Shown here: in pieces, positions 25,802-48,072 of the stretch
Layout of the letters: every line of letters begins with the position of its first letter
Position numbering within the stretch: position 1 is the stretch's first letter
Assembly (NCBI RefSeq): GCF_019649055.1
Contig: NW_026570266.1
Location: forward strand, 310,001-374,000
DNA from: Paramacrobiotus metropolitanus
Taxonomy: Eukaryota; Tardigrada; Eutardigrada; Parachela; Macrobiotidae
Direction: 5' to 3'
DNA length: 64,000 nt
Position numbers and translations under genes: made by a program
Notes under the pieces: generated by a model
What the model was told of the DNA's origin: nothing
Databases searched by the model: none
What the model saw: the letters and a program-made list of their open reading frames with translations, nothing else

Positions 25802-26215
25802 TCATAACAAAAACACTTCTTCTATGCTATCCTGCTCGGGGATCGTACCTATAATACATAACGCATTTCCCCGTTGCACTTGGATAGATAGCCGCTGTCT
25901 AAAATACTCTTTCGCCCGCTTCTGGGCTGTGGCGGAAGCTATGCCGTTGCCGACCTTCTCCACGAGCTTTTTCGTTCCGCCTCCCAAGGGTCCGTAAATT
26001 TCAAAGGCGGCAGCTACTAGATTGTATCTTGGATGTAGCCAGCCGTGTTTCGACAGCTTTCTTCTCTCCGCCTGCTGCACCGACGCATACGGAAGTGTGG
26101 TTGATATACGACGTGGCGAGTGAGTCCACGCCGGTTACATCAATAGCCAGTGGTTTTCCCCGCTCCCACGGGACGAGGGTAATCACTAATCACATCTGGG
26201 ACGCCAGTAGACTAA
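25802..26215 (-). mobile_element. second LINE-type reverse-transcriptase C-terminal remnant
   Basis: The minus-strand reading begins ITLVPWERGKPLAIDVTGVD, then SLATSYINHTSV. After a frame change near 26075 it continues KHGWLHPRYNLVAAAFEIYG, then PLGGGTKKLVEKVG and RLSIQVQRGNALCIIGTIP. These are the same landmarks as in the fragment at 9029-9420 (PWERG, the D-T/V block, the F-E-GPLG block) plus the QRGNA end of such ORFs. The frameshift and lack of upstream polymerase motifs show a dead copy. Confidence 0.65.
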
Positions 26216-27660
26216 TACAAGCCAAGAAGCAGGCATATAACGCGGTCACGTAGCCACGCCATCTCCGCTGATTAGAAGATAGCTCAGACCAGCGTCCATT
26301 GATACTTTTTGAAATTTATTCGACACGTCATTCCTCGTGCAAGACAGATGGACGCGCTTGTTGTACGAGCTGTACAAAATAATGTCGCAAAACAGATGAA
26401 ACCTTTTAAAAAAATCATTCTCGAACAAGGAACTGAATATAGGAGATTCGGGAAACGTTCTATTCATTCCATTCACTCCGGGACATTGTCTTTCTGAATT
26501 GAGGTCATGCGCGTACAGATCGTAATGAATGGAATTTTGGCACAGAAATTTCTAAAAATTTGAGTGTACAAAATGATGAGTCGGTCAAGGAACCGGATAG
26601 TCGACCACATTATGCTCCCGTGGAAATCGTTTGACTATCTTCGACGCATAAATTCTTATGAATTTTCTAACGACTTTTTCAGTCATTCCTCCGTAGACTC
26701 GTATGCTAAGTCAGCGGAGTTGGTTTAGCTGATCTTATCTGCTTCCTGGCTTGTATTAGTCTACTGGCTTTGACTACGGCCGTCAGATATGTAACAGCTG
26801 ATTGGACTGAAATATTATACTGCCAGTCACAGCACTATTCATGTGGTCAGAAGGCTGAACTATAAAGACTTTATACTTATTAGTAGGTTACTAACGTCTT
26901 ATGAATTTTCAAGTCAGCGTGTGGGAAATGGACGAACAGCACAATTTAAATTATTTATGCATGTGGGATTTATTGTAAGCTAAACGCAATGGCGATCACC
27001 GATCGCCCTTGCGTTGCGTTTGGGATAGTCTACAAAAACTTATTGACGGTTTTACAACTGCTAGTTACATGACATGCACTGATAGCAGTAGTAATGCTCA
27101 GCATGGTTGGCAATTTTTATAAGTTATTTTTTCTTGACTTTCACCCAGTATGCTTGTCATGTTTTTAAGACACCGTAAAATGCGTTAGGATCACACAAAT
27201 TGTACCGTTCAGTATTTTGCATCGTGCGATGTCACCTTGATATCGCTCAGTGGCTGTCATCGTGTCATGTCATGGTTTGTATACCCCCGTGAAAATGTAT
27301 AAGTTTTTTTGTAACAATTTTTGAACAACAGCTATACCTTTTTGTGCCGCAAAAGTTAGTGTAGAACTTACAATTACCAACTTAATTTGGAACTCGTTTT
27401 TAGAAGTCTTATTGTAAGTTTCGCAGTAACACTTGTAGGTAACAGTGCAACACATTTCGGAGACTAAAGATACAGGAAACGTACCCAAAAAGTGCATAAA
27501 AATAAAACATCGCGTGCACTTTTGGTATTCACGTTAGGTATCAAAAATATGCTAGTGGGTATCATAAATGCAAAACGCTAAATCGACATATTCCGCCGGT
27601 GGTAAAATAGCCAATAAAACATCATCGCGCCAAAGTTAACACTGATTTCGTAGGAAACGC
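26216..27660. other. left flank of the palindrome-rich element
   Basis: No gene. It contains the hairpin at 26983-27015. I looked for an inverted-repeat terminus matching DNA right of 39117 and found none by eye, so the left boundary of the element is unresolved. Confidence 0.35.
26983..27015. repeat. hairpin with 15-bp arms
   Basis: AACGCAATGGCGATC at 26983-26997 pairs with GATCGCCCTTGCGTT at 27001-27015, with one mismatch and a 3-base loop. It sits about 650 bp outside the first GGAGTCGACTCC site. It may be a relic of a transposon end. Confidence 0.75.
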
Positions 27661-30293
27661 TTAACCTTTGCGTGGAGTCGACTCCTTCCCATGGTTACGC
27701 AGGTAGTACAGCTTACGGCTGAAAGCCCGGATCAGCTGTGCTTCCTGGATCTTCAACTGTTTCCCGGCCGTAGCTGGATGGTATCCATTGATGTAAGCTA
27801 CGATCAAAAATTTTCTATGGTGATAATGTCATAACCGGTTTTTGAAATTTTAATTAATACCCATCAATTCGCCCATCAGATCTGTCCCCAGCGCAGATTT
27901 CAAGCCATAATGGTCTCCCCGAAAGATCCGTGTTGCCGTTTCTGTATTGCGGAAAAACATCACCGCAAGGTTGACACCGTCCATGAGGGCATTCTTTGGC
28001 TTTAAGTGGGCCTCGAAATTGATGAACTGCCCCTTCGGCAAGTACACTCCGGATCCCGGATAGAGCTCCACCTTCTCTTTGGTTTTCAATCTCAGCTGCT
28101 GCCGACAGATCTCAGCCAATTCTCTTTGCTCTTCCATGATTGCATCTAAGTGAGACATAGAAAAAAATTCACGGGAAAAGGTCGACCTCATCCAATAAGT
28201 TATTTAGTAAAAATTATCGAAAAAAGACCATGCTTATCTGTGCAGCATCTGTATGAAAAAAGCTGAAATAGGATATACCGCACCTTTATGTTTCGCATTC
28301 CCAGCACTTTTTGTGCCTATATAAATATGATTTTGCCGGTTACAACTGTTAGGTAATTGTTTAATAAGTTCCTGTACCGCTAGCTTGCTTCTCCACTTTT
28401 GATGAGCCGCCACGTCGCTCAGCGTCAAAATCTATGAATAAAAGAGATGCATTGAAACATCGCGGCAAAAGCGAATGCTGAAAGTAATCAGAGCACAATA
28501 TTTACATGCAAACACTTCTGTTACCTTTCATCGGTGGAGTCGACTCCTTGCCGTAACCTGGGTAATCTGCTTCGTCACATCTGTCGGCTCCTAAATGATA
28601 CGTTAACACCGTAATAGTCAAATGCGATTATTTGGCTCTTTAACGGGTAACCTACGCATAATCTTTTCAGGAAACAATTCTCGGGCCGCTATTGCTGGCA
28701 GCTTTGGCTTGCCCGTAGGTGGAGACAGCCTGTACCATGTATAGTTGTCATCATCACTTCCTGCCAAGAATGTACAGTACATGTTAATGGCTCGCAGATG
28801 TATTGCTGACTTGTGGCAGTGTTCAAGCGTTCTTACGCCATCTTGAGCTCACCATAGAAAAGGCCGACCTGCTGTACTACGAAGCAATCGGAACCACTTA
28901 CCATCAGATTCCTCAAATTCCTGTCGTTATTAGCCGGCAGCTCTAAATTGACTAATATTTTCAAAATAACTTAAAACGAACGGAAACAGCAACCGAGTTT
29001 CTCTGTACCTGGTTGTTTTCCTTTCATGCTTCCGCTACCAGCGGCGACGGGACTACATTGTCCAACGGGCTTTCCGGTATAGGGATCAAATCTCCAGTTG
29101 CAATTGAGATCCTGGGTGTTGTTACCATCAGTTCGGGATTCAGACTCTGAACTGATTTCGTTGAGCAGGTCTTCTTGGCTTTTCTTTTTGGATGGAGTCG
29201 ACTCCAGCGTCCGCGCGCCCTTTCCTTTCTGCAAAACATTCCTTTGCTGACAAACTGCACAACGACTCTAAGAGTGACGAAATATTATAATAAAAATAAA
29301 TTGGCATTAATGAACGTTTTGCAACACTGTCTTGCCTTTCGCGATTCCAAATTCTTTGCAACGAAAACAGCATCTTTTTCACTTGAAGAGACTTTAACAA
29401 CCCGAGCCGTGAAAAAGCGTTGCAGAGCGTCTTGGTTCTTTGGTGCCTTCACGCTAATAATATCCCCCTCTTTCAGCAGTGATTCATATGTGGACATTTC
29501 TTCCAAACGCCATGCCGCGCTGCTGGACTGTCGCTCCATAGAAATAATGTGAACAAGACCGTCGTCAACAAATTGAACAACGCAATAATCTGAAAATTTC
29601 CTTATTGTTAGTAGTAGTAGAACAAGTATCCATCAACAAGTACTTGCGTTACCTTTGTCTATACAACTCGGTTAAAAAATTAAAAAAACAGACTGGAGTC
29701 GACTCCATTCAGGCACCTTTAAGCAGCTCAAAATCTGAAGTTTTTTAAGTGTGAAATCGATGACAAACAATACGGCTGTTAATGTCAGTAATAACCAATT
29801 AACATCCGACTACCGATAAAATAAGGTTAGAATTTTAATACATTCTGATTTGGTGTTTTCACCATTCCTAATTCCAGATATGCGAAATCATATAAGGCTT
29901 GTTAAAAAACGGCTGAACTGATCAGGAGTCGACTCCCAGAAATCTTTACAGTTTTAAGTTGGATGCTACCTTTTCGAGCGGCATGTCGGGCATGAATTTC
30001 TTTTTGTTGACGCTGTTGATCATCCATTTCTATGTCGTCCTCGTTCAAGGATCCGGAAACTTTCTTCACACGCTGCGGTCTACCCTTTTGAGTAGGCGGT
30101 CTATCTTTTTGAGCAGATATAGTACGCTGTTGCTGCAAAGAACCAAGAAACGAAAAAAACTAAGTAAACAAAACGAAGAATTTGAAGAACGGAGATCGTA
30201 AACCTGTTCACCGCGCACAACTAGAAGACTACATGCATATGTGGGACTAAAAGAAAAAATGCGGACGGCACGAATCGGGCGTACCCATATCAT
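27661..30293 (-). CDS. BEN-domain protein of the palindrome element (9 exons, about 457 aa)
   Basis: Proposed exons on the minus strand: 30293-30204, 30132-29970, 29589-29336, 29228-29009, 28760-28656, 28590-28525, 28431-28378, 28145-27861, 27797-27661. All phases agree and sum to 457 codons plus a stop; intron 3 would use a GC donor. Exon 3 reads YCVVQFVDDGLVHIISMERQ, the kind of N-terminal segment seen in animal BEN proteins. Exons 8 and 9 give VELYPGSGVYLPKGQ, LMDGVNLAVMFF, GYHPATAGKQL and RKLYYLRNH, a good match to the BEN fold (residues about 335-445). BEN domains bind DNA, several of them at palindromes, and recruit chromatin repressors. Three coding exons contain the palindrome GGAGTCGACTCC, always read as ESTP (LESTPSKKK, KESTPPMK, KESTPRKG). 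Exons 1 and 4-7 are inferred from splice logic only. It is divergent from the transposase gene, about 300 bp apart. Confidence 0.65.
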
Positions 30294-30304
30294 CTACGTT
30301 TACC

Positions 30305-30316
30305 GGGGTCGACCCC
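30305..30316. promoter_or_regulatory. palindrome 12 bp upstream of the BEN ATG
   Basis: GGGGTCGACCCC sits inside the 296-bp divergent region between the BEN gene (ATG at 30293, minus) and the transposase gene (ATG at 30590, plus). Its place in the 5' region makes it a candidate operator through which the encoded protein could regulate its own transcription. The binding protein is unknown. Confidence 0.5.
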
Positions 30317-30589
30317 TTCTGTTTCAATACGTACATACAGATTTGGTTACCATCGGCCCGCGGCGCCTATTTGCTACAACTGGTGCCGCACACAAGGAAA
30401 CACAGTTCAGTTCAACCGGAAAAAACAGCGGAAGCTAGCGCTGCCGGCTATTATGCGCGCGGCTTGATAAAGCGAAACAACAATAGTGGCGGCACCTTTA
30501 TCTTCTTGCTGCTAGAGTTCACGCGAAGATATTTTGACTAATTTATTCATTCTTTTAGTTACAAATTTCATCTTTAAATTATTTAAACA

Positions 30590-33211
30590 ATGGCGGAAAA
30601 ACAGCGTAAACGCCGAAAACGGTATCGATCGTACTTGTATGAAGATGGACTATTGCCGAAAACATCTCACTGGAGAAATCGCGGAATAGTGGCCAACCCT
30701 CGAATTCTTGAGTCAAGTGATAGCGAATCGCAGCCGTAAGGAGTCGACTCCCTGGTATTTTTATTCTGACTCATTAATTTTTTTAATTTATTATGCTACG
30801 AGTGCTATTGTTTAAAAACCTTACATGTTATCAGTGATGTTAATTGTTCCGTCTAAAAGTAAAAGGAAAAGTTATGTTTTGTTCGCTTCATCCGAAATAT
30901 TTATCAAATAAACTAATTCAGTACGTAAAATGTTTATTTCAAGAGTATGTCTCCTGACGGCACTTGGGATGACGGAGCGTTTGTTTCGCCAGTGGTTTCA
31001 ACACCTCAAGAAGATGCCAGCTCGGATTCGGATATACTTGAAGAGGGTGAAGGTGATTCCGGTGTCGACACCCTGGGGAATGTCATGCAGTTCGTGCGGA
31101 TCTGCAGGAAACACAAAATGTCTCGCGTTCAACAAGGGGCAATGTTGAGCTTTTTCAAGAAACTACCCAAGGATACGTCGGAGTTTCCTGAAAATCTGTA
31201 TTATCTCGATTCGTTTCTTACGCCTTATCTGCTGAATCCGAATATCCATCATTTCTGCTACGAACATCAAAACTATATCGGAGAAGAAAACAGTCTTCGG
31301 GATCCAATATGCTGTTCGAGTGCAGAGTGCGGGTCGACCCATAAAACCATCAAAGACAACCGAAAGCGAGGAAGTATTTTCTACACGTTTCCGATTGGTA
31401 GCACTGTCGAACGCTATATAAAATCGGACAAAGGAGGCGATGTATTTAAATTCAGAAACAGCTTTACAAATCTGGACATTTTTTGTGGAAAGGGATATCA
31501 AAGACTGAATATACACGGAAGAGATGTATCGCTGACATTTCATGTGGACGATGGACAAACGTTTGGGTTCAATGGTAGTTTGAACGGATCAATTACAGTT
31601 GTTAGTTACATAATCAACGAGCTTCCTACGCGTAAGCGGTACCGGGACCGGTTTCTATTTGCCCTTGCGGTGGGAAAGGTGAAACCGAACATGGACATTA
31701 TCCTTGAACTCCTTGCAGCGGAACTTACAGATGCGGCGAATGGGTCGACCCAAGCGGACGGAATCAGTTCGATAAAGCCGGCATTATGGGTGGCTGATAC
31801 CATTGCGAGAAATGACATCTTGTGTCATGGATCTTTTGCTGGAGAATACGGATGCACTGCGTGCCTACACACAGGAAAAGTAGTCGATGGTGTTCGGGTT
31901 TACCCGTTCGATGGTGTTTCCGCAAAAAAAGATCGAAAGGAGTATATCGGCAGTGCACGGGCTGCTTTGCAGCACAGTAAACAGTGCCACGGAATAATTC
32001 GTGCAAGCCGGTTGTTTCGAATTGCCTCTTTTAGTCCCGATGTACATTGTCCTCCTGACATTCTGCACGCCGTTGGTTTAGGAGTTACCAAAAAACTCTG
32101 CAAGTACTGGATGCAGGATCCTATGTGTTGTCTCCCTATTTACACCAATATCAGTAACCGGAGGAGGAAAATTCTGCCTGCAAATCTTCAGACTGAGGTC
32201 GACCTACGAATTTCCCGTATCAGCTTTCCATCACAATTCAGCCGTACAATTCCCCCCATATCGGAATGTTCGTCGTATCACGCCTCTGAGTATCTTAATT
32301 TTCTCATGTATGGAGCGTTTTATGCATTGGATGGACAGTTGCCTCATGTGCTTTACAGAAATCTGTTGGATTTAGTGATGGCTATGCACTATCTCATGTT
32401 GGATTATGGAGGGTCACTAAATAACCACGCTGCTACCGCTCATAGCCTTATTTCTCGTTATTGCCAACGATTTCAACAATTGTACGGAGAGCGACGGATG
32501 TTGTTTAACGTTCACCAACTTATTCACCTCTCGACAGCCCTTGAAAACTGGGGGCCCGCATATCAATGGTCGACCTTTTACTTTGAGGACTTTTTGGGTG
32601 GGTTAATGAAATCGGTTCATGGCAGTACGGACGTGGCTTCCCAAATTGTACAAAATTATCAACATTTAGAGGCTTCGCGCTGTCACCAGTCAGCGGCTGG
32701 CACTAGCGATGACATAAAGACTCCCCATTTTTCGTATAAATTAACGGGTCGACCCATATATGATGCAGATTTGGCACTGCAAATTCTAGAAAAGATAGGA
32801 CGTTTGCAAGAAGCGCTAGAAGGTTGTCCACGGAGCTTCCGAAACCAAGTAATCCGGAGCGATGGCGTTGAACTGGAGTGTTACGGAACTAGTAGAAAAG
32901 AGCGGCGGTGCAACTACTGGTTCCAAACGGCGAATGGCGAAATAAGAAAGCTGTTAAAATTCGTTATTTTTGAATCCGTTGTGCGAAGTATTTATGTTGC
33001 TGTTGAACATATCAGAACTGAGCCGTTTAGTGCCATTACACTACCAGATGGCACAAATCCGCGTTTTATAAGAAAATGCTTGCGATGTAATTGTCAGCAG
33101 TACGATGTAGTGCCTATCGATAGTCTGTTCAGACCTGTTGTGTGTATATATGGAAAGCATAATTATCCTGAATTCTATGTCTGTATACCGAATGAGCGAT
33201 TTATCATGTAA
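30590..33211 (+). CDS. CACTA-type (Transposase_21-like) DDE transposase, 803 aa
   Basis: Two exons, 30590-30735 and 30946-33211, give 803 codons plus a stop. The donor GTAAGG and an acceptor at AG|T (30944-30945) keep the frame, joining SSDSESQP to MSPDGTWDDG. The N-terminus is basic (MAEKQRKRRKRYRS), then acidic. The core carries the landmarks of animal EnSpm/CACTA transposases: VADTIARND (about 330), the C-x2-C of YGCTACLHTGKVVDG (about 350), PPDILHAVGLG (about 417), FNVHQLIHL (about 568), and GPAYQWSTFYFEDFLGGL (about 585) with its candidate catalytic Glu. Asp residues in the first two motifs could complete a DDE triad. The frame is intact, so activity is possible. Six lattice palindromes fall in exon 2 and are read in different frames (GST, EVDL, WST, GRP), so the DNA motif rather than the peptide is conserved. 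It would cut and rejoin element ends. Confidence 0.82.
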
Positions 33212-33298
33212 TTAAAATCAGATCTCTTCGAATAAAAAAACAGGTCGACCCTAGCACCGCTTTCAACAGGATGGAATTTATAAAGTAATTTTAATCAG

Positions 33299-33824
33299 TT
33301 ACTTTTGTTTTTCTCTTTTCGGTAAGACCATTTCGTCTTCAAAAGCTAGACTTTCATAGTCAAAATCATCGAATTCGTCATTACTCTTTTTCGGCCCGGT
33401 CGGCTCTTGATTGATAGGAGCTTCACGTTTGTGTACCTGAAATTTTTTGCATTGCATTAGTTAACAAAATAAATAGAAATTACTTAACTTTGATGATATA
33501 TGGGCAACACTTGTGCGCAGTTGCAGAAAATTTGTATAAACAGAACATGCATAACACCACTGCATCGTACGGGGCTTAGCTTACGCGAACAGGAAGCGCT
33601 TCCCATGTATCTTCTGGTGTATCACATGTTGCGGTGGTAGGCGTCTTTTCTTCAGACGGTAGGTCGACCTTTTTCATCTCTTCTTTCGGTTCTTTCACAA
33701 CCCTTGTGGTAGCTGTTTTCAGGGCTTTGAGGATTGCTTCTCGAGACTTGTAAGGTCGGGGATCAATTATAAAGCATCCTTCAAATAACGATTCATCATC
33801 GCTCGACATGCTAAAAACAACCAC
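33299..33824 (-). CDS. small acidic protein of the palindrome element (125 aa)
   Basis: Two exons on the minus strand, 33824-33585 and 33436-33299, join in phase 0 (LPVR to VHKRE). The product starts MVVFSMSSDDESLFEGCFII, has a Lys-rich middle (KEPKEEMKKVDLPSEE) and ends in an acidic stretch (NDEFDDFDYESLAFEDE) followed by KREKQK. No family is recognised. Acidic tails of this kind are common in activators and histone- or DNA-mimic adaptors, but no function is claimed. It is tail to tail with the transposase, about 90 bp apart. One palindrome lies in its exon 1 (33661, read VDL), one 56 bp upstream of the ATG (33880) and one 3' of it (33243). With the ATG flanked by a site, it looks like part of the same regulatory set. 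Confidence 0.6.
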
Positions 33825-33879
33825 TCTTTACTGTGGAACAAAAATTCGCGGCAAAACGCAGGCATTTCTTACTTGGCAC

Positions 33880-33889
33880 GGGTCGACCC
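33880..33889. promoter_or_regulatory. palindrome upstream of the acidic-protein gene
   Basis: GGGTCGACCC lies 56 bp upstream of the ATG at 33824 (minus strand) and is the last site before the 3.4-kb gap in the lattice. Candidate operator; inferred from position only. Confidence 0.45.
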
Positions 33890-36800
33890 AGCAATAGCAC
33901 CACCAAGATGAAAAGATACCAGCAAAAAAACCAAAAAAAAGTTGTAGAGACAAAATTGCAAATACTGCAGATACAATTACCGATTTTTGCAAACAAGACA
34001 AAGACCGGCAGTTTTAAGCAACACAAGACATTTGCAAACTAAGGCTAGGTGTGGGCGTGACCAAGCTTTGCTTATTCGTACTAGACGACCGCCGTGATTC
34101 AACAATTCTGAATTGAATATTCCTATGGTATTCCTATGATCTCTTAATTTATTAAATTATTAGATTTCTTAATTAATGAGGTCAAATAGATTATTCACAT
34201 TTTTTACTACATAGAATAATACGAGTACTTAGATTTCTTAGATTTATAAAATTACTTAAACTTTTTAGATTCTTTAATTTCTTAGGGTATTTTAATCACT
34301 TAGAGCTTTCGGAGGTCTTAAATTTTTAAGATTTTTTAGATCTCTTAGATACCGCAGATTCTTAATATTTTGTCAGGAAAAATGTATTAGTTATAAGACT
34401 GAAAGTTTCAAGTTTTAATATTTATGTAGAGATTTTACAAAATTTTGTCTTTATAAACAAAATTTTCCTTGTAATGGGTCAAACTATTTTCTGACAGCAT
34501 ATTATAGCGTATGTGACTAATAATGTACAAGTGTTGTATGAGTAAACTGTGTGAGTGTAAAGTGTAAACTTTGTGAGTGTAATCTTAAATCAAAAAACCT
34601 ATTCCATTTCATTTAGCCTAACCTAAACACTCATTGTTTCTTCGCCTATAAAATGGCAGTCTGTTACTGTTTACGAGAGATGAATTCTTACGACTTCTTA
34701 CGAACGAACGACCGATCGATCGACATTAAACTTCTGCCAAAACCTGTTGTTCTTGCGTTCCTGTATTCCCGTTATTCCTACACCATCATAACTTGATTAC
34801 AGTTAGATCAAGTTAGGCGACTGGGCCGCCGGAAAGGCAATCCAGTACGTAGCGTTATAGTCTACGTTATAATATTCAGAATTAGCGATACCGGTTTATC
34901 CAGAAAAAGATTTGCTCATGGCGTCACTGCAACCGCCCAAAGTTATCAAGGTGCGTAAGGGACCCCGGCAGTCTAAATTTTTCTTCCCAGAAGAATATTG
35001 AAAAATGGTTTCTGTATCGGAAAGATGTGCTGAGAATTATCCCGAAATCAGATTTGCTCTAAAAAATGTGCCTAGGTCGATATGGGTCGCATGTAGTCAC
35101 TGTCAATATTTATCGAAAATGTCATGCAAGAGTATGAGTTAACACAAATGTAAGAGTAGGAAACGATGCTAGGAAAGGACAAACCAAACATATAAACGAA
35201 ACACGATTAAAAGTTAAACTAAACTGAAAAAAACTAAACTAAGCTCAACTGAACTAATTAGTTCATTAGGAACATAGTTAGTAATGTGTGAGTAAGATGT
35301 ACTAATTATAAGTACTTATGCGTTTAATACTGAGTAATGAAGGCAAGTCAACGATAGGTAGGTGGCGCGTCAGACGGTTTTGGTATGCCACAGTCGTGCC
35401 GCATGCGCAGACGCTGGGTTCCGACAACAGGTTTTTCCAGTGAACTGTGAGAACGTTGCGCACAGAAAACTGGAAGAACCAAAAATTGCGCGAAATATTC
35501 GGGTTTTTTACTTTTACTTTTCGACGAGTAAATGCTACTAATAACTCTTAATTTGGATAACATCCTGATAAACGGTTGAACTCGAAATTCTCCTGAATTG
35601 AGTGATGTGTAGCGTTGGCTGATCTAAAGAATCACTACTGTTGATCATTCCCCTTGTGACGAATATTCCCATTTGTTATTTGTATGGACTAGGAACTGCG
35701 GTGTCTATTTGTTTCGTGTTCTCCTTAATTTGCTGAGTGCGGTAGTGTGGTGGATTGCGGTGAAGAGTCGGATGATCTGATTGTAGAGTGACGCTTGCCT
35801 TCGCGATTGCCTTTTTACAGCCGAAACAAGAGGGATTCCAGCGCCCAGCGGCCCAAGTGGACGTTTCTCGGTTGCGTAGCGCGTCACTGTTTGCCTACCG
35901 TAGTGTAAGTGCTTTGCTCGCTGGCGGTTAAGTTTAATAAATAGTTGTTACGTGTGTCCTTATCGGCAGAATTTAAGATTGAAGAACCATTCAGTTTTGC
36001 GATAAGCTAGGATTTTTAGTAAGTACTACTCCAAGTCCGGAGAGCCAGAGAAAGAAAAACGGCTGCAAGATATCGTAAAATTGCAAATACCCGTTAAGTG
36101 ACAGTGGCGGTGTGTAGTCACTGTAGCCAAAGTAGAGCGCAGGCTTTGCCAAATAGAGAATTTGCTGTAGATCAGCGTCTCTATGATCACAATGATCCGG
36201 GTTCCTGTGTGCCTGTACGCTTGGTTTCTGGCCGTATTGACAGCTAGCAGTTAGCTGGAGCTTTCCGCAATTTGTCGATCAGGTTATTATTTACCGTTAT
36301 TCGAGGAAGGTTTCGGTGAAAAAGTTTAAGTCTCCTGTGTTTAACACTTACGTTTTTTTCGTCATAATGATGGGCCGAAAGTACTATTAACACTCCGCTT
36401 ACGATGAAGGCTAGCTTCACTGAAACACTTATTTTAAGTGCCACTACTTTTACTTATGTACAGATAATTAAGCCTTCAATACAATTTCCTCAGCTTATGG
36501 TAAATTATTACCGGTGGTTATTAAAATTACGCGTTTTTAAAAAAAAATAATTTATTGAAAATACGCGCTTTTCCATTTTTGTATAGTCTGCGTTTTTTCC
36601 TGCGACAGTTTACGCCCGGTTAGCTGTTGATGGGTAGTTGTTTATTGTTAGCTATTTAGCATTAATGCATTCATTTTTTCCGTTTTTTCATAACTTCACA
36701 ATGAATCACTAGTAAATAGTTACGTTTACAATCCGTTTCTCTCCGATTTCCTTCTAAAATGTGACATGTGTCAGGAGTACGCATTTAGTAGAGAATTTCA

Positions 36801-37322
36801 ATACTGAAAATAATAGCCTTTGTAGGCGTCCGATTTGGGATTATTCAGTTTGAGCATTGTGTTAAATGAAACATGATCGTAAGCATTAAGGAATTCTGAA
36901 AGGTTATTTCAGTTTGTTTCCTGATTGCAGATTCTTTGGATATTATTGTTCCCCGATCAGCAGTCCGTGCCGCACAAGCCGCAGCTGCCACAGGACGGTA
37001 ATACAACCGCGCCGGGATCGAAGCCGGGAGATCTCTCTCATCATATGAATGTATCACAGTGTGTTCTAGATTGAAGCGGCATCTTGGTACTTTCCGTAGT
37101 CATAACTGTTTTCTGGATTGGCGTTTGGCATATTCATTCGATCGGCATTATCTATAGTAAGTACTGTATAGCGTTGGTAGCAGACTCGCAGGGCGCTCCG
37201 TGCATTGTGGTCTAAGAGATTACAATTCGAGAAGGTTATAGATCGTTTTTTTCATGACGGCTTTAGTGTGCAATCGTCTCAAGAGTTTGACGGAGGTTCT
37301 CGTTACAGGGTAGCGCTACGTG
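33890..37322. other. palindrome-free AT-rich gap, possible nested insertion
   Basis: About 3.4 kb without a lattice site where about nine would be expected at the local spacing. 34140-34400 is low-complexity TTAGATTTCTTA DNA. At 34640-34860 there is CTATAAAATGG followed 150 bp later by a GC-richer patch. From 34918 a short Met-initiated frame (MASLQPPKVIKVRKGPRQSK) ends after about 27 codons and, in the next frame, reads NIEKWFLYRKDVL, loosely like a retroelement Gag start. No LTR pair or target duplication could be matched. No gene called. Confidence 0.4.
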
Positions 37323-37332
37323 GAGTCGACTC
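37323..37332. promoter_or_regulatory. palindrome 5 bp upstream of the RING-gene ATG
   Basis: GAGTCGACTC at 37323-37332 precedes the ATG at 37338. Together with the sites before the BEN and acidic-protein ATGs, three of the four element genes have a palindrome within 60 bp of the start codon. Confidence 0.5.
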
Positions 37333-37337
37333 ATAAA

Positions 37338-39117
37338 ATGGAAGATCACCGAAGAAAATTATTAGACGCAGTATACGTACGTTTAGCTATTTTTGAATAA
37401 CGGATTAAATGTAAAATTTAAATCATAAGATTTTTCAAAATTAATTCTCGACTTATTTCATGGATATTTACAAGTTGTTTTTATGGTTTTCTGTTTTGTT
37501 TGCAGGATGTGAAGAATTCCGTTCAGTGTATGATTGGCGTAGATTGTCCGTTCCATAGCCTTGTGATTTCGCCGTGCTGTAGTGGAATAGTGTGTCATAA
37601 ATGCGCAGACGAATGGATTGCGAAACAACCGGGAGCAAATGCCGACGAGAATCATGACATCGTCTGTCGTTGTCCGAATTGCAACGTGTAATACTTATAT
37701 ATTTTAACAGTATATGTTGGGTCGACCCATTTTCAAACTGTAATTCTTTCTTGTTTGCAGCGAGGGGTGGAGGCTTTCTGCAGCGCTGAGATTCACTGCC
37801 ATGTCGGATTTGGTGCAGAATTTAGACACCGTCGTATCGTTGGTGTCCATGGCACCAGAGATTCCTCTTCCGGGAATGAGTTCGATTGTATTCCCGCTGA
37901 ATACTTTCCGCTTTTCCAGACAGTTTTGATGGATACGAAAACAAGGGGAAGTTTTACCTGAGCGGGAATGACCTCATGCGGCTCAATATATTCGCCACGA
38001 TCACGAAAGAAGTCCCAATTTTCGGGTACTGCAGAATTCCCCAGAGCATAAATAACTTATATCTAACATGAATATCTAAATATTTCCTCAGTTTTTTGCA
38101 AAATCATTATTAATCAAACATTGGCCGGTTTTATAGAAACTCCGACATTGACTGTGAGCGGATGGGCACTGAGCTCCATAAATACATTCGCTTCTCAATG
38201 GATATGGAAAAGGCGGTCCAGGAGTGGGCGCAGTTCTTGGCAAAACACAAAGGTCGACCTATACTTGCATCCTCTGCCTTCCTCCCCCGCAGTCTACAGA
38301 AGCCGCCATCCGTCAAAGACCAGGCGTCGGTGTCGTGTTATGTTTACGACTGGATTAAACCGTTCCTTTCAAACTCGCCGGAGGTAGAGAAATTGTTCGG
38401 TTAAGTCATAATTTGTACGACTTTCAGTCATTTTATTTGTGCATTTAACAGACGGCGAAAAGTATGCTGGACTCTGTGGGACTCTTTCGCCTCGCCACCC
38501 GTCGGCTCGATCTGTCCCTGCCGCACAAGCATTGGACAGAAACTGCAACCTGCCATTGCGTGATGTGTCTGATTAGATCGGAAGTCCGTTCTTATTTAAG
38601 CCACGCTCAGAAATGGTAGTTAGTTATTATTGTGTAGATTTGTTTCCATCAGTATACAGTTTGTAATGACTGCTTTAATGCAGGTCAAAGGGGGAGTTCT
38701 ATTACGTCTTGTGTACCCTCTGCGGTGAGAAGATCAACTGGCTGCATATTACCACGCATATGAGGAGGATTCACGCGGTAAGAATTAAGGAGTCGACTCC
38801 AGTTCTGGCTAATATTTCTGTTGCTGATGAAAGTATTTTCTCTACAGAAAAAGTTTTACCTGAAATGCCGAGGCTGCTTCGCTCCTTTGTCTGGACCTTT
38901 TTATAAAGGTGATGTTGCACATGCAATTGAGTGCAACGCTCGGGAGTGTCCTCTGGCTTCCGGACCGCTGGCCACCAGGGGGCGAGTAATTCCACCTCAT
39001 ACAGTTTTTGAAGTTCCGCCACTGAACATCCCGGCGACGGACGACCTGATCGAGCTGGTGACATACGAGACTGTGAAGGATGGAAGTACTCAGCTCGTCA
39101 TCTTGTGCAACACGTAG
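37338..39117 (+). pseudogene. RING-like/zinc-finger gene of the palindrome element, one frameshift
   Basis: Seven exons: 37338-37370, 37506-37687, 37761-38025, 38137-38383, 38452-38615, 38684-38777, 38848-39117. Exon 2 encodes a Cys/His cluster (CMIGVDCPFHSL, then CCSGIVCHKCADEW and CRCPNC) like a RING-type zinc fold, suggesting E3 ligase or structural binding. Exon 5/6 give CVMCLIRSEVRSYLSH and CTLCGEKINWLHITTH, like C2H2 fingers. Exon 7 adds CRGCFAPL, later AIECNARECP. All junction phases agree except that exon 3 stops unless one T is removed from the T4 run at 37924-37927. With that single change the total is an exact 417 codons, which argues that the gene was intact recently or that the assembly has a 1-base error. 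Palindromes lie before the ATG, in introns 2 and 6, and in exon 4. Confidence 0.6.
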
Positions 39118-39877
39118 AAAAGTAAGCAAAAACATATTTTTCCAATTTTTGTTGTCCAACTTCACTTGATAATTTTTAATTCGCTTGAGAATATTACGTT
39201 CTTGTTTCCAGGTGTATGCTCCTTTGGCTTTGACACGCGACTGTGGTGTTTCTGGTTCGAATTAGCCGATCGCATTTCCTCTGCCTGGATTAGTTCAAAC
39301 CTAATTCGACGATGCTCATTCCCTACAATCATCATCTTTGTACTATTATTTTTTGTTTCGGATCAGTAACTTTGTTGTTGTTCTCCTGGCTTTCTTAAAT
39401 AAGTCAGGAATTTCGGACAGACTTTATCAAATAATTGCGACGTTCTCAATGTTTTTTTTATTTTTTTACGAACGGTATTTTGCGGCGTCTGTTCTCGATT
39501 TGTGATAATGAAAATGTTGAACTGTCGTGGAAGTTTTGTGTAGCATTCAGTGTAAGTAAACAAAGATGAGAAGTTACATTAAACTTCGACATAGAATCGG
39601 CTGCTCACAAAATATTTTACAACGTTTAGTAGTAACTTCTATGGTGCACGAATTCTTAACTAGATCTTTTTTGTAACTTTCATTTTCACGAGGGATAATA
39701 CCGATATCGAAGCGGTATGAGTAAAGTATTACGAGTACAAGCTTAACGCTGTCGTTACAAAAAAATTTTAGGATGTGGTGCCATTATTATCGCATTTGTT
39801 TGCAATCCAACGAAAGATTGCGCAGAAACCTTGGAAGAGCAAATGAACTGTCGTATTTGCGCATTATTGCAGCTGTA
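39118..39877. other. right flank of the palindrome element
   Basis: AT-rich, no gene, no lattice site and no terminal repeat matching the left flank by eye. It ends at the TGTA target site (39874-39877) of the LTR element. Confidence 0.35.
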
Positions 39878-40265: not shown

Positions 40266-42615
40266 TGCCTCTGGGCGGGAGTGGGAGCTCCTGCGAGCAC
40301 CTTCCGACTCTGCCCTAGCCGACCCGGTAGGGTGCCAGGATCCGATACCCGGTAGGGCCGGATGCCACTTTGTCTCTAAACCCGGTAGGGTCGCTTCCTC
40401 CAGACCCGCGGTGCAGTGCACCGAACGGCCGAAATCTGGAGTGCACTCTGGTTGCTGGGGGTTCCAGTGGGGTTTGAAGGCTTGGTTGGTCGAACAAGTA
40501 AAAAATAAAGTTTATAAGGCTCATATGTTAAACATCGAAATAAAAAGATCACAATTCCGGTGAGAATTAAAGAAAGATCATAGTTAGAGATCCCAAAGCC
40601 AATTCCTTTGGTTAAATGGCTAAATAAAAACATCATCTTTGGTTAATAAAGGTTTGGTTTGGTTAAAAAACTAGACGAAACAAAAGGCTTATTCCGACTA
40701 GGTGTACCACAGGGCCGCATTTGTCCACAGGGGTCCTAGTCAATGGTCCGCTTTATCCGGTAGGATATGTCTGGTCCTGTGAATCCGGGGCGACGGTTCC
40801 CAGAGATGTCCACAAGGGTCCAGTGAAGTAATTCCAGCGGAGTTGTATGAGGAAGGCACGGTTGCATGCGCAAGGACAAGTTGTCCCCTTCCTGATTGTG
40901 GTGGACCAAGCCCGGTTGGGCGGTCCATGGTGGGCCAGAATGATGTCTCTGGCCAGGAGAGGTGCTCCTGTAGTGAAATGGACCGAACCCGGTGGGGTGG
41001 TCATAAAGGCTCTCAAATAACGCCTCTGAGCGGGAGGGGTGCTCCTGCTATCCAAAACGGTATGCTTGGACCAATTCCGTTTGGATGGCCCATATGGGTC
41101 TCTAACTTGGACCGGTTTTGGCCTTGCATGCCGGTTTGGTCATGCACCTAGGTCCAAAAAATCTTCTAAGTCCAGGAGGGCCATAATGGAAAAATTTCTA
41201 AGTCCGAGGACCAAGTGGTGTAATGGACCAAACCCGTTGGGGCGGTCCAAACTTGGTCTCTGACATGCTCTGGACCGGGATACAGGGTTCCGGAATGGTA
41301 TGGCCTTGCTTCCAGCCTTTGGAGGGGTGTGGGTCCTGTATAACCGGTTTTGGCTCTCCGATTTGGACTTAGTCGTTTTTTGATGAGCCACGTCATTGGA
41401 CGGGCCAAAAGACTTAGTCGATTTTCCAGTGGCCACGTCGTTGGACGGGCCAAAAGACTTAGAAAATTTTCGGTGGGCCACGTCGTTGGACGGGCCAAAA
41501 GACTTAGTCGATTTTTCGACTGTCCGCGGTTGATGGCGGGCCAAATGGACTTAGTCGTTTTTTCGACTGTCCAAGGTGTATGGCGGGCCAAAAGGACTTA
41601 GTCGTTTTTTCGACGGTCCAAAGTTGTATGGCGGGCCAAAAGGACTTAGCCGTTTTTTCGACGGTCCAAGGTGTATGGCGGGCCAAAAGGACTTAGTCGT
41701 TTTTTCGACGGTCCAAAGTTGATGGCGGGCCAAAATTGGTCCGTCTCACTGGCCGTGGGCCATGAGTTGGCTACCATGTCCGATGAGTCAGGTAGGTTTC
41801 CCTGAGACCGTGGCCATAACAAAATTAAGTGGCGTCTGACGAAAACATCAGGTTGGCCGGGCCAAACTTCAAAAAATTAAGTTGTGGGCGCCGGTAGGCG
41901 TTTTCCACAAAGGAGTCGGTCTGCTGACTAGAAGCATCCTCGTTTGGCCTCGGGGCGGTGCATCTTTTGGATGGGCCTCTGGGCGGTCCGTGGTGAGGAT
42001 GTTGGACATGACATGCAAAGTGGGTGTACCACAACTTCTATGTGGCTCCCAAACTCACTTGTCCCAGTTACTTGGTATGGCAACTAGACTCGTGAGCCAC
42101 ATATGGTCGGTTAGACGCATAGTGGGCCTGGTCCAACTTTTATGGGCCAGGACTTGGCCTTGGCTTGTCGCAACTTGTATGCGGGCCAGGCTGATCCACG
42201 GCTTGTCGCAACTTCTATGCGGGCCGTCGCCGCCTTCTGGGCGCTGGATCCTTTCCATGCCGGTGAACTTAGGCGTTGTGCCAAGTTCGGTCCGGTGGAC
42301 TCCGTCGGATGGTCTGGGATGGCCGAGCCAAATTCATGGTCCCAGCCGCTAAGCCAGAGCCTATCCGGGGAATCCGGTTACGATCCAGGGATTTAGGTCC
42401 GGTGAGGTGGACGGTACATGGCCGTAAGCCAGGTTTGTTGGGCAAGGGTAACAACCGTTAGATTGCACCCATTATGGTGGTCAAGTTCCGATTCAGCATT
42501 ATGGTCCCACTTCTAAGTAACCGGGGTTTTCACTGGAACATTCTGTCCAGTGCGCTTGTCTCAGCCACTTCTAGGTGAGACATGTCTTCGGGGCTAAGCT
42601 GGATGAGCCGTTGGC
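40266..42615 (-). other. 3' non-coding region of the LTR element with hairpins and tandem repeats
   Basis: No coding signal. It carries the CCCGGTAGGG-type hairpins at 40315-40396, 40902-40927, 40980-41002 and 41224-41249, and the 45-48 bp array at 41360-41740. Base composition is skewed, with G and T in excess on the plus strand. No convincing polypurine tract lies beside the LTR at 40266. Confidence 0.5.
41360..41740. repeat. tandem array, 45-48 bp unit, 8 copies
   Basis: The word ACTTAG recurs at 41367, 41412, 41457, 41502, 41549, 41596, 41644 and 41690. The unit contains GGACTTAGTCGTTTTTTCGA and GGCGGGCCAAAA, so each copy itself has a small inverted repeat around TCGTTTTTTCGA. The first four copies differ from the last four by carrying CCACGTCGTTGGACGGGCC. 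Confidence 0.85.
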
Positions 42616-43386
42616 TCAATCCAGGCGGCGCAGCGTCGTAGCTGCTTCTGACATCAGGGCCAAGAATCGTCCGAGGCATTCTAGCAATTCACGCCCAGTT
42701 GTTTTCAACTCGTCCGCTAAAGTACGCGGTTCGCGATGGTCGTGTCGCTGGGCTTGTGTCCAGTTCTGGACACCGACATCGGTTCTATCGTGGATAGACC
42801 GTGGGTGTTGAGCGTTTACTGAGCGCTGCTCGTGACGATTCCAGCGTTGGCCATTATTTGGGCGGTGAGTGGCGCGGTTTGCTTTCCCAGGTCGCAGGGA
42901 GTGTATTGGTAAAGCTGACGGCTGAGCCGCCACGGTAGTGGTTGCTCTCAGTGTGCCGTGATGTTGGGACAGCACCGTGGGTGCGGGTTCCCGAAGTCCG
43001 TGCTGGGCCAGGTAAGGCTGTGACTGACCGTTTTGCTGAGCTGTCCCGGTAGAGACAGCCGCTGATGGGATGTATGGCTGTGTTGCCGACGCAAACAGAA
43101 TTCCTCCCAGGAAAGCCTCCCGTAGAAAGGCAAGACGGTCCGTCGTTTTGCCCAGATCGTTGTCTTCGTTTTGGCAGATGGTTTCGACCACCTGTTTGTA
43201 CACGGCCGGATTGCCTCGTTTGATTTCGTTGACCAAAGCTATGCCGATGGCGTACTCGTCACCGTCGTGTGGCACTGCTTCAGCAAAGAAACATGAATAG
43301 CACGGAAGCCGCCTTTCTTGATACGGGCTGTTGCTGACGCATGATTCGCATTCCCGGTTAAACGCTTGCTCCGGTGTCTTTGCCAT
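42616..43386 (-). CDS. LTR-element ORF, 256 aa, with paired CxxC motifs
   Basis: Starts MAKTPEQAFNRECESC and has CESC plus CYSC at residues about 14-33, separated by 13 residues, a possible zinc-binding knuckle. The next about 80 residues (EYAIGIALVNEIKRGNPAVY, TDRLAFLREAFLGGILFA) look like a folded helical region. The C-terminal half is a Gln/His/Arg-rich linker ending in a short helix (ELLECLGRFLALMSEAATTL). It is the last ORF before the 3' LTR in transcript order. No known family recognised; it is not integrase or RT. It may be an extra structural or nucleic-acid-binding protein. Confidence 0.55.
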   Translation of the reverse strand: MAKTPEQAFNRECESCVSNSPYQERRLPCYSCFFAEAVPHDGDEYAIGIALVNEIKRGNPAVYKQVVETICQNEDNDLGKTTDRLAFLREAFLGGILFASATQPYIPSAAVSTGTAQQNGQSQPYLAQHGLREPAPTVLSQHHGTLRATTTVAAQPSALPIHSLRPGKANRATHRPNNGQRWNRHEQRSVNAQHPRSIHDRTDVGVQNWTQAQRHDHREPRTLADELKTTGRELLECLGRFLALMSEAATTLRRLD

Positions 43387-43564
43387 GTTCTGTGGTTAAA
43401 TCCCGAAGTCAAGGTTAAATTTGCTTCGCAAACTGGTCCCTATGTTTTAAAAATCCTATCAGTTTACGTCCTATGGTTCTAAATGTTATTTGTTAACTAG
43501 GCTTTTCTTGCCCGGTGAATTATTTCGGGATCACCCCTAGACCTCTGCGAATTCTACGCTTTGG

Positions 43565-45310
43565 TCAGTGCCGCTTTGCTGGCTTCTCTAGTTGGTAAGG
43601 ATTCTTCTTTGGCCCGGATTCTTCGGGTTGGGATCCAGACGTAGTCTGGTCTGAACTTGACTCTTTGTCGGAATCAGTGTATTGCTCCGTTGGGAGAATC
43701 ACCGCATCTGGGCCATCTTGAAGGTTGTGTCGGGCCTCCGTTAGAGCCACCGACGATGCAATTTGAGGTGATGTTGGAATCAAGGGTCCAGGTCCGAGTG
43801 GTATTTCTGGCAGAGAAGCCGTTCGTACTGGTCTTTTCGTTTTCTTGTGTTCCGTTCTTCTTAGTTGTTCTTGTCGAGGGGCGGCGGAGGCTATTATCAT
43901 TCTGGGTGGAAGAGGGCGGCTGATGGTCCTCTTTGTTTTCCAATTCCTCCGATCGACGTAATCGGGAATTTCGGCACGCGGTAAACCCGGGCTGTCACCA
44001 AGTTGAACATCCAAAGTGACTGTAGATGCTCCTGGAGCCACGATAGTGGTTTTCGGTGTCGGTTCAACGTAGTTGAGCGTTGCGGTCAAAGGCAGGGCTT
44101 TGGGTGCGCGTTTTGCGGTTTTTAAGACCGATCCAGGTAGCTCAGGGGGTCCAGCCAGCGCCGTGGGTGCGGCTGGTCCGGACGATGTAGATGCTTGAAT
44201 AGGTACCGGCCTACGTTGCTGGCCGGGTGGACTTAGCTTTTCAGTCGCCAAGGCTGCGCTGATTTGTCCGCCGAGTGCTGCTCTGTTGGGTCCGGCCTTG
44301 CTTGTTGTTTTCACTGGACTCGTCTCGCTAGGGAGGTCAAGTGATGATTCGAGCAAATCGTTTACAATGCCCGAGATGTCAGGATGGGTTAAGGAACAAG
44401 TTGGGCCGTCGATCCCGTCCTTTATTTGCATTAGTTCGTCCATCCACTCCTCCAATGGATCAGCCGTAGGCTGAGGATTCGTAAGTGGGATGCCTGATGG
44501 TGCATGTCCTTGGACACCAGTTAGTGGTTCCGTAACTGGACTTGAGTTGGGAGGGACTGGTAAGGGGACGGTAACCGATGGTTTCATCGAAGAAGTTGTT
44601 GGGGCTTTGTCCTGCGGAAGGGCCAAATGGGTTTTTGATGTTGTAGCGACCGTCGGTGCTGCCGGGAGATCTGGTGTGGCTGCTGTCCGCGGTTCTGTCG
44701 GCGTCCAGCGTGTGGGGGAAGCGTGTGCCGATGCCGTTGTAACAGCCGGTTGGGCCGCTAATGGCAGTAGTGCCGATGACACTGGATTCGTTGGTCGCGC
44801 CGTAAGGCCAGCCAGGTGGGTGGGCCTTGGTGCTGGTGACGAGTTTGGTGCTGGGTAGGGATTCACTGGTCCTTGTTGGTACGGTGTCTGGTAACCGTAT
44901 GGTGGCGGATAGCCATATGGTGGGTACCAAAGCCACGGTGGTGGTTGGTATTGCCAGTACGGGTTCTGGTACGGGCTCATCCATGAACTGTGCTGGGACG
45001 TTGGTCCAGGCATCATTGGTGGTCCATATGGCGTCACTGGAACGTTCTGTCCAGGTGCTGCACTTTGTGTCTGGGTTCCTGATGGCGTCCGCACCGTAGG
45101 TGGGGCTGATGGCCATCCCTGTCCAGAGCTGTGCGATCCAGACGTTGCTGTTAGATTGATGGCCAGATTTGGTGGCTGGTTGAATGCTTGCAAGGTGGAT
45201 GATGACGCTGTCCGTAGTATGGGATTTGATCCGGATCTTAAGTCCGGTCTGCTGTGCAGATGTGTCCGGTTGCTTCGGTTAGATCCGCTGGATGGTTGTT
45301 CTCTTTCCAT
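43565..45310 (-). CDS. LTR-element ORF, 581 aa, Pro-rich
   Basis: An uninterrupted 1.7-kb frame. The N-terminal half is low-complexity Pro/Ser/Thr/Gln/Tyr (WYPPYGYPPPYGYQTPY) and the C-terminal half has charged, ordered-looking stretches (DPLEEWMDELMQIKDGID, then AEIPDYVDRRNWKTKRTISR). No domain recognised. It starts MEREQPSSGSNRSN; the stop at 43565 leaves about 180 bp before the 256-aa ORF. The lack of stops over such a length argues for translation or recent activity. It could be the distal part of a multi-frame Gag polyprotein or an accessory protein. Confidence 0.5.
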   Translation of the reverse strand: MEREQPSSGSNRSNRTHLHSRPDLRSGSNPILRTASSSTLQAFNQPPNLAINLTATSGSHSSGQGWPSAPPTVRTPSGTQTQSAAPGQNVPVTPYGPPMMPGPTSQHSSWMSPYQNPYWQYQPPPWLWYPPYGYPPPYGYQTPYQQGPVNPYPAPNSSPAPRPTHLAGLTARPTNPVSSALLPLAAQPAVTTASAHASPTRWTPTEPRTAATPDLPAAPTVATTSKTHLALPQDKAPTTSSMKPSVTVPLPVPPNSSPVTEPLTGVQGHAPSGIPLTNPQPTADPLEEWMDELMQIKDGIDGPTCSLTHPDISGIVNDLLESSLDLPSETSPVKTTSKAGPNRAALGGQISAALATEKLSPPGQQRRPVPIQASTSSGPAAPTALAGPPELPGSVLKTAKRAPKALPLTATLNYVEPTPKTTIVAPGASTVTLDVQLGDSPGLPRAEIPDYVDRRNWKTKRTISRPLPPRMIIASAAPRQEQLRRTEHKKTKRPVRTASLPEIPLGPGPLIPTSPQIASSVALTEARHNLQDGPDAVILPTEQYTDSDKESSSDQTTSGSQPEESGPKKNPYQLEKPAKRH

Positions 45311-47367: not shown

Positions 47368-48072
47368 TTAGACCGCGGGTAAGTTCCAGTTGCCTCTCGA
47401 ACGGATCAGCCCATGTCTCCAACGATCCCAAAAGTCCTTACCAGCTATAGGACAAGTCGACCCTGTGCCTGGTAACGATTCCTTTCGGATGAGCTGCTCA
47501 TTGCAAGGCGCCCGGCTCCGTTGGGCCGGTGCCTCTGGTATCGGGATAGCGTTTGCTATCCCGTGCGACAGCGCTTCTGCGGTGTGGCAGCACTGGTTTT
47601 CTGCATCTCGGACTCCCGTTGCCGTGTCGAAGGGCGGGCTATCCTCGTAGGTTGTGGGCTTGGATGTCGGGTGATCAGTCCGGTTTATCCGAGCTTTATG
47701 GCCTGCACTGCCCGATGCCTCTGGTATCGGGATAGACTGCACCACCGGTATGGATGGTCTTGGAGTCTGGTGAGTGGAACCTTCTGCCACTATGTTGGTC
47801 GAGAGGATGCATTTCTGCGACGGCTCTACACGACTGTTGGTCTGTAGAGGGTCGTAATCCATGCTCCGTGCCACCCGACGGGTCGCGAGTCCGCCGAGAT
47901 GTACATGGACACTGGTTTCTGATCTTTTGGCGTTAGTTGCTGCCAAGGTGGGGACTCCATCCTTGAGCTCGTAGGTGGAGATTACCCCGTCCGCATCCTT
48001 GGCGGATGATCCACCTTTAGTTTTGGGGTGGATCCTTCCGTTCTCTTGACGGGACGTCCATCCGCTGCGCAT
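47368..48072 (-). CDS. LTR-element ORF, 234 aa, fourth overlapping frame
   Basis: Overlaps the previous frame (47982-48542) by 91 bp. The sequence has no recognised domain. A near-repeat occurs twice: SIPIPEASGSAGHK and AIPIPEAPAQRSRA, reflecting a duplicated DNA block (near 47500-47570 and 47690-47735 on the plus strand). It may be translated by a frameshift or splice, or be a decayed part of an originally single frame. Confidence 0.35.
   Translation of the reverse strand: MRSGWTSRQENGRIHPKTKGGSSAKDADGVISTYELKDGVPTLAATNAKRSETSVHVHLGGLATRRVARSMDYDPLQTNSRVEPSQKCILSTNIVAEGSTHQTPRPSIPVVQSIPIPEASGSAGHKARINRTDHPTSKPTTYEDSPPFDTATGVRDAENQCCHTAEALSHGIANAIPIPEAPAQRSRAPCNEQLIRKESLPGTGSTCPIAGKDFWDRWRHGLIRSRGNWNLPAV

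Follow-up and report, generated by a model that had tools for sequence, protein, structure and literature searches.

A regularly spaced array of palindromic sites under selection along a tardigrade DNA transposon, with lineage-specific dyads and sharing by piggyBac elements

The TnpA sites of En/Spm (CACTA) transposons lie in the subterminal few hundred bases of the element, and HIP1 and other highly iterated bacterial palindromes occur genome-wide, in coding and non-coding DNA, under selection. We know of no target of a BEN domain that is arranged as an array along a transposon. BEN domains bind palindromes and may need oligomerisation, as for NAC1 (ACATGT; PMC7764960) and BANP (CGCG; PMC11472053). 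VANDAL transposons of Arabidopsis carry many short motifs per element that are read by the element's own anti-silencing protein, VANC, and motif and protein change together; the motifs (YAGTATTAY) are non-palindromic, are found chiefly in non-coding tandem repeats with a single orientation, seldom occur in other transposons, and counter DNA methylation (PMC5735166). Here we describe E46, a DNA transposon of 12,411 bp at positions 27284-39694 of a 64,000-nucleotide stretch of the Paramacrobiotus metropolitanus (Tardigrada) genome (contig NW_026570266.1, positions 310,001 to 374,000 of the forward strand; this whole stretch is called the window), which carries an array of GTCGAC-centred palindromes.

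We regard VANDAL/VANC as the nearest system in logic. In both cases a repeated motif is enriched in the element over the genome, and the array sets the element apart from the genome, as demonstrated for VANDAL and as seems likely for E46. Unlike VANDAL motifs, the E46 sites are dyads that are evenly placed, penetrate exons in three frames, do not form tandem repeats and are shared with piggyBac elements, in a genome where exon-level searches found no C5-methylase. E46 resembles En/Spm in its putatively CACTA-like transposase, its 3-bp target duplication and the presence of a repeated motif within the element; however, its sites are palindromic and span 11 kb including coding exons, and its termini read CCC, not CACTA. 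Like HIP1, the E46 array iterates a short palindrome under selection in coding and non-coding sequence alike, but it is confined to mobile elements of a eukaryote and its variable arms are symmetric. NAC1 and BANP are comparable in that BEN domains bind short palindromes, some as oligomers (PMC7764960, PMC11472053), and E46 encodes a BEN-like protein, although its similarity stands at the edge of detection. In the open-access literature we found no transposon described as carrying a dyad array that is evenly spaced and runs through coding DNA, and nothing on palindromes in tardigrade transposons that matches.

The window contains 34 copies of GTCGAC, compared with 10.7 ± 3.0 in shuffled sequence, and none of 100 shuffles reached 34. 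Twenty-one of these cores lie within 27677-38797, inside E46, and all 21 are centred in perfect palindromes of at least 8 bp (at least 10 bp at 19 sites and at least 12 bp at 11). A preliminary description, made from the sequence alone, had reported these 21 palindromes; the counts and shuffles bear it out, as they do its coordinates and its mean step of about 390 bp (388 bp measured between 27677 and 33882). It had counted only two symmetric versions of 8-10 bases in the remaining window, where we find five (2285, 21725, 24876, 50718 and 60745) among 13 GTCGAC, about the chance level for 13 background sites. Generic dyad detectors found no comparable pattern elsewhere in the window.

The sites occupy exons in several frames, introns and flanks, as the same description held. 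The leftmost, GGAGTCGACTCC (27674-27685), lies in the last exon of the minus-strand gene and is followed by AGGTCGACCT (28179-28188), GGAGTCGACTCC (28536-28547), a site lost from the window copy, where it reads GCCGAC, but intact as GTCGAC in the three remaining copies (28863-28868), TGGAGTCGACTCCA in an exon of the minus-strand gene (29193-29206), TGGAGTCGACTCCA again (29694-29707) and GGAGTCGACTCC (29925-29936). Between the divergent genes lies GGGGTCGACCCC (30305-30316), and GGAGTCGACTCC (30740-30751) sits in the transposase intron, adjoining the putative donor GTAAG. The transposase exon contains GGTGTCGACACC (31061-31072) and AGGTCGACCT (32196-32205) in frame 0, GGGTCGACCC (31331-31340), TGGGTCGACCCA (31741-31752) and GGTCGACC (32568-32575) in frame 2, and GGGTCGACCC (32746-32755) in frame 1. 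Further right are GGTCGACC in the 3′ flank of the transposase (33243-33250), AGGTCGACCT in a small minus-strand gene (33661-33670), GGGTCGACCC (33880-33889), GAGTCGACTC (37323-37332), TGGGTCGACCCA (37718-37729), AGGTCGACCT (38251-38260) and GGAGTCGACTCC (38789-38800). The array works through the DNA or through its transcripts; a conserved peptide as its cause is ruled out, since sites lie in three frames, in introns and between genes.

Spacing was tested over the main block of sites, which in E46 ends at the site-free stretch 33890-37322, a spacer that varies in length between copies (parts are absent in C82, C105 and C214). The mean step is 388 bp in E46, 454 bp in its relative C19, 428 bp in C57 and 387 bp in C107. 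The coefficient of variation (CV) of the spacing is 0.25-0.31 for E46, C19 and C57 against 0.92 for random placement (P < 5e-5) and 0.50 for C107 (P 0.001); at C1:3530k the regularity is not significant (CV 0.71, P 0.08). The mean steps of 388-454 bp fit the two nucleosome repeats that had been suggested, a match that is numerical only. Beside the spaced sites, the joined loci of C19, C57 and C122 contain, at about 9.4-10.9 kb, a site-free middle of fast-changing tandem repeats.

We aligned four copies of E46: C46 (the window copy), C214, C105 and C82. Between C46 and C105, in 10-bp windows, the sites diverge by 0.5% and the rest of the element by 12.6%; the figures for other CG-centred and other palindromic windows are 11.7% and 12.8%. 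Ten of the 12 ordered copy comparisons gave a permutation P < 0.002, and the C46-C82 pair gave 0.04 and 0.02. Single sites are occasionally lost: the window copy, for example, lacks 28863 and C82 lacks 32748. The array is thus maintained by selection, with sites conserved far above their flanking bases in related copies. Nor is the motif common throughout the genome, the other point on which the preliminary description had hung its reading: the 170-Mb genome has 74 copies of GGAGTCGACTCC and 4 of the reversed control, and at the places fetched the matches are mostly in repeated element families. Its proposal of a distributed recognition system spanning a transposon gains support from the conservation amid diverged flanks, from homologous positions at 43% protein identity, from the regular spacing and from lineage-specific dyads. 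The strongest features lay beyond its view, namely the within-site symmetry of varying letters, the sharing with piggyBac elements and the lattices built on other cores.

The elements C19, C57, C122 and C116 encode transposases 42-44% identical to that of E46 and carry the same gene set. In this lineage nearly all sites are perfect 16-bp palindromes, mostly of the form TGNNNGTCGACNNNCA, in which NNN varies by site (GAT, AAG, CAT, CGA, TGT, GAG, CGG, CTT, CGC, CGT and others) and left and right nearly always match. Genome-wide symmetry counts combine pattern totals with the matches listed (about 50 sites); among the first 50 matches listed for TGNNNGTCGACNNNCA, 23 are fully symmetric at NNN, compared with about 0.8 expected, and all 23 are clustered. 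When right arms are shuffled among sites, the within-site matching far exceeds what column composition yields at offsets 1-3 in both the E46 and C19 families. The edge of this matching is sharp: it falls at offset 4 in E46 and at offset 6 in C19, a family whose offsets 4-5 are almost invariably C and A. Between C19 and C116, which are 35% diverged overall, 65 of 70 site-pairs show no change at offsets 1-5 and there is one symmetric double change, and offsets 6-8 changed much more often. Within the C19 lineage, TGCGG..CCGCA corresponds to TGCAG..CTGCA in C116.

Four transposase sites of E46 coincide, or nearly so, in alignment column with sites of the C19 lineage and share their frame (columns 165, 304-306, 464 and 650). 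The E46 site at 31331-31340 is in the same column in C19, C57, C122 and C116, that at 31741-31752 is shared to within 2, and those at 32196-32205 and 32746-32755 are shared, the last also with C11; this lattice-free element has kept one of the four homologous sites (column 650). At column 165, GGGTCGACCC in E46 corresponds to GAGTCGACTC in C19, with both arms changed and the protein reading G vs E and H vs R. Since the arm letters differ between sites, match within them, undergo symmetric double changes and end at a sharp edge, selection sees the symmetry itself.

Lattices are common in the E46-type transposase group and their dyad is lineage-specific. Lattices of other dyads occur in relatives more distant from E46. 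The core GGATATCC is present in 19 copies in C107 and 21 in C1:3530.5-3540.5k. All four letters occur at the next outward base in C107, where this base is symmetric at 19 of 19 sites; in C1:3530.5-3540.5k it is symmetric at 20 of 21. Across 12 sites homologous between these two elements, which are 36% diverged, the outward base is unchanged in 11 and symmetrically changed in one, and one-sided changes number 0 against 5.5 expected neutrally. GGA-NN-TCC occurs 21 times in C87 and 25 times in C168, with the centre mostly TT or AA and flanks that are not symmetric. The densest lattice seen is that of L057 (C9:2011501-2018500), with 35 copies of GCG-NNNN-CGC in 7 kb, the centre being free, and with GCGA-NN-TCGC, at 18 copies, as the favoured form. 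Coupling of variable arm letters is found in the GTCGAC and GGATATCC lineages only. No lattice was found in C11, C76, C149 and C235 by any detector used, including gapped, odd-centred and non-palindromic ones.

We also observed E46-type GTCGAC lattices inside the transposase genes of three piggyBac families, namely L018 (C7:454.8k), L022 (with near copies L023 and L024) and L050 (C153). Their transposases match piggyBac DDE_Tnp_1_7 with E 9e-65 and 4e-46 in two cases and 8e-70 in C153, and the lattice spacing has a CV of 0.17-0.48 (P 0.0004-0.009). Some lattice positions are common to L018, L022 and L050 (GRP site). One homologous site, at position 843 of L018 and 1391 of L022, is shifted by one base into a different frame, which suggests re-evolution or turnover of sites at a preferred place. 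The piggyBacs C127, C21 and C24:220k have no lattice by the detectors used. A retroelement, L025 (G000:C1:2945501-2954500), with reverse-transcriptase and tyrosine-recombinase-like frames, carries an identical set of three GTCGAC palindromes in both of its repeats, which lie about 5.9 kb apart (972, 1350, 1535 and 6913, 7291, 7476), and may also be a user of the array system. Additionally, non-autonomous derivatives retain 2-5 sites and little else. Derivatives of the C19 family (L042-L045; C3:1970k, C4:24k, C5:2083k and C1:3562k) carry the words TGTCG, TGGCT, TGCAT and TGGAT in fixed order, and one end matches the C19-family left end.

We tentatively propose, at somewhat short of an even chance, that the array consists of selected cis-acting dyad sites that are bound by a dimeric protein, most likely the element's own BEN-like product, for element-wide anti-silencing, and that piggyBacs exploit it. 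Under this proposal, about 20 dyad sites placed every ~400 bp over most of E46, coding DNA included, would serve as a binding array. A dimeric sequence-specific protein, most likely the BEN-like minus-strand product, would bind them on the DNA, and the element-wide binding would probably keep chromatin open or block small-RNA- or histone-based silencing. E46 would thereby stay expressed and mobile, and unrelated piggyBacs would have acquired the same sites and share the benefit. The array, the selection on it, its regularity, the lineage-specific dyads and the sharing are demonstrated here, and we infer the protein, its binding and its licensing function. An even grid is not needed for end-joining and piggyBacs with a different transposase use the array, which is why an element-wide chromatin effect is suggested. 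Exon-level searches of the genome gave no match to a C5-methylase and many Argonaute/Piwi exons, and RNA- or histone-based silencing is therefore favoured over methylation as what is probably escaped.

Dyads that change with the element lineage are what a coevolving, element-encoded reader would produce, and because they follow these lineages the putative reader is probably element-encoded. The most likely candidate is the element's BEN-like protein, whose BEN assignment is weak. The C-terminal domain of the minus-strand gene product is 40-50% conserved among E46, C19, C116, C11 and C76, and the gene is kept in E46, C19 and C116. In the GGATATCC lineage a strongly diverged domain occupies the same place and shows only a weak alignment (hhalign E 0.006, with a probability of 6%); when hhalign was repeated locally, the real comparisons gave 0.001-0.02 vs 0.6-0.96 for shuffled controls. 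This divergence would fit a changed specificity, if the domains are homologous. An AlphaFold model of one BEN-like exon (mean pLDDT 53) was too poor for use.

Several observations weigh against our proposal. The preliminary description had called the encoded protein BEN, and the Pfam BEN model gives no match at the minus-strand gene; what stands of that name is that, when the domain profile is compared with PDB, the two best matches are NAC1 BEN domains, at marginal E values of 0.36 and 0.5. C11 and C76 have the BEN-like gene and no detectable lattice, and a simple rule equating presence of the gene with presence of a lattice failed on these two elements after their upstream DNA was fetched. 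A plain homodimer gives no account of letters that vary between sites yet match within them; a conformationally coupled dimer could possibly read arm equality. Finally, no BEN-like protein was found for the piggyBacs in the DNA searched, making a host reader possible.

A host reader would be a DNA-binding protein, an insulator or chromatin opener, that several transposon families exploit independently. We consider this rather unlikely. The GTCGAC lattices of two unrelated superfamilies do share one arm vocabulary, the piggyBacs show no BEN-like gene in the DNA searched, and BEN-solo proteins of flies are insulators (PMC6911014). However, separate dyads for each transposase lineage fit an element-encoded reader better, and among the matches listed fully symmetric sites are clustered only, with no sign of host use.

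It is distinctly unlikely that the array serves transposition, in the manner of En/Spm TnpA sites extended element-wide for compaction or for bringing the ends together. Transposase and array travel together and the non-autonomous derivatives keep their few sites with little else, as such a role would have it, but the sites are even throughout and not concentrated at the ends. Moreover, E46-type words are also present in piggyBacs, whose transposase is a different one, and which would gain nothing from an array that served solely to assemble a CACTA-type transposition complex.

Selection on base pairing of the arms, as hairpins or cruciforms in RNA or single-stranded DNA, appears very improbable. 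Within-site covariation of the arms and symmetric changes are classic signs of pairing; however, a four-base loop would reduce the 8-12 bp palindromes of E46 and C107 to stems of only 2-4 bp, neither the centres nor the flanks pair in the C87, C168 and C9 lattices, and sites lie in genes of both strands and between genes. We give just as little credence to mutational symmetry, in which polymerase template switching homogenises the arms and selection acts on half-sites only. It is established that template switching can make the arms of short inverted repeats alike (PMC8604942) and maintain pairing in RNA hairpins (PMC8794818), but such copying should spill over the edge of a site, whereas the symmetry breaks off abruptly at 10, 12 or 16 bp and does not exceed chance immediately beyond the functional edge. 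It should also produce near-neutral symmetric drift, whereas the arm letters are nearly frozen; as the sole cause, quasi-palindrome correction was rejected on these edges and these letters. Chance, base composition or shared ancestry without selection has a negligible probability, being ruled out by the enrichment, the generic dyad detectors, the homologous positions, the regular spacing and the lineage-specific dyads and refuted by the conservation amid diverged flanks.

Whether this is a new transposon strategy, with an even dyad array whose reading needs matching arms whatever their letters, codes diversified by lineage, and sharing with or theft by unrelated transposons, we regard as evenly balanced. 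The array shows that information other than protein sequence, under strong selection, runs through the protein-coding part of mobile elements, in the form of a regular cis grid and not of terminal signals. If it is anti-silencing, it would be a counterpart of VANC that is apparently independent of cytosine methylation, and the piggyBac arrays would be a case of one transposon family exploiting the protection of another. Arms that are variable yet coupled pose a biochemical puzzle as to what reads the equality of two half-sites. If symmetry is read, the mixed half-site GGAGTCGACCCA should be clearly worse than GGAGTCGACTCC and TGGGTCGACCCA, whereas a plain half-site model predicts an intermediate. 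If the BEN-like proteins are the readers, the expected preferences are GG(A/G)GTCGAC(T/C)CC for E46, TGNNNGTCGACNNNCA for C19 and NGGATATCCN for C107, and, since several lineages differ in their dyads, coevolution of reader and sites can be tested straight away.

The boundaries of E46 are common to its four copies, with unrelated flanks. Its inverted ends are CCCCCGTGAAAAT (27284-27296, plus strand) and CCCTCGTGAAAAT (39682-39694, read on the minus strand), matching at 12 of 13 positions, with one base different in C82 and in C105. All four copies have 3-bp target duplications: ATA in C46 (27281-27283 and 39695-39697), CAA in C214, TAT in C105 and AAT in C82. This 3-bp duplication is a trait of the CACTA/Mirage (CMC) group; since the termini CCCCCGTGAAAAT and CCCTCGTGAAAAT are not CACTA/CACTG, E46 is not filed as En/Spm proper. 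The transposase has no significant Pfam match, and its relative in C107 matches DUF1258 (E 8e-5, below the curated cut-off), which is the Mirage group, near CACTA (PMC3985635). No relatives of the transposase were found in viral contigs.

The gene set of E46 comprises the BEN-like gene (minus), the transposase (plus), a small acidic gene and a right-hand gene with zinc-binding-like exons. The multi-exon minus-strand gene (27661-30135), its exon joints placed by eye from conserved frames, includes the BEN-like domain in a main exon (27853-28161) and the last exon (27661-27800; IQEAQLIRAFSRKLYYLRNHGK). On the plus strand, a probable first transposase exon (30591-30737; MAEKQRKRRK...) precedes the putatively CACTA/Mirage-like main exon (30943-33211) inside a 760-codon open frame; the frame is intact in three of the four copies, with 757-769 codons. 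The small acidic gene (33295-33808, minus strand; MSSDDESLFEG...) has two putative exons, and the right-hand gene (37340-39060, plus strand) has RING-like and zinc-finger-like exons in an approximate structure. Just left of E46, a 30-bp inverted repeat (26203-26232 and 26739-26768, 506 bp apart) is possibly a separate small element. To the right and unrelated to the lattice, the window is G+C-rich and tandem-repeat-rich at 40753-51700, with overlapping long frames of 592 and 777 amino acids on the minus strand.

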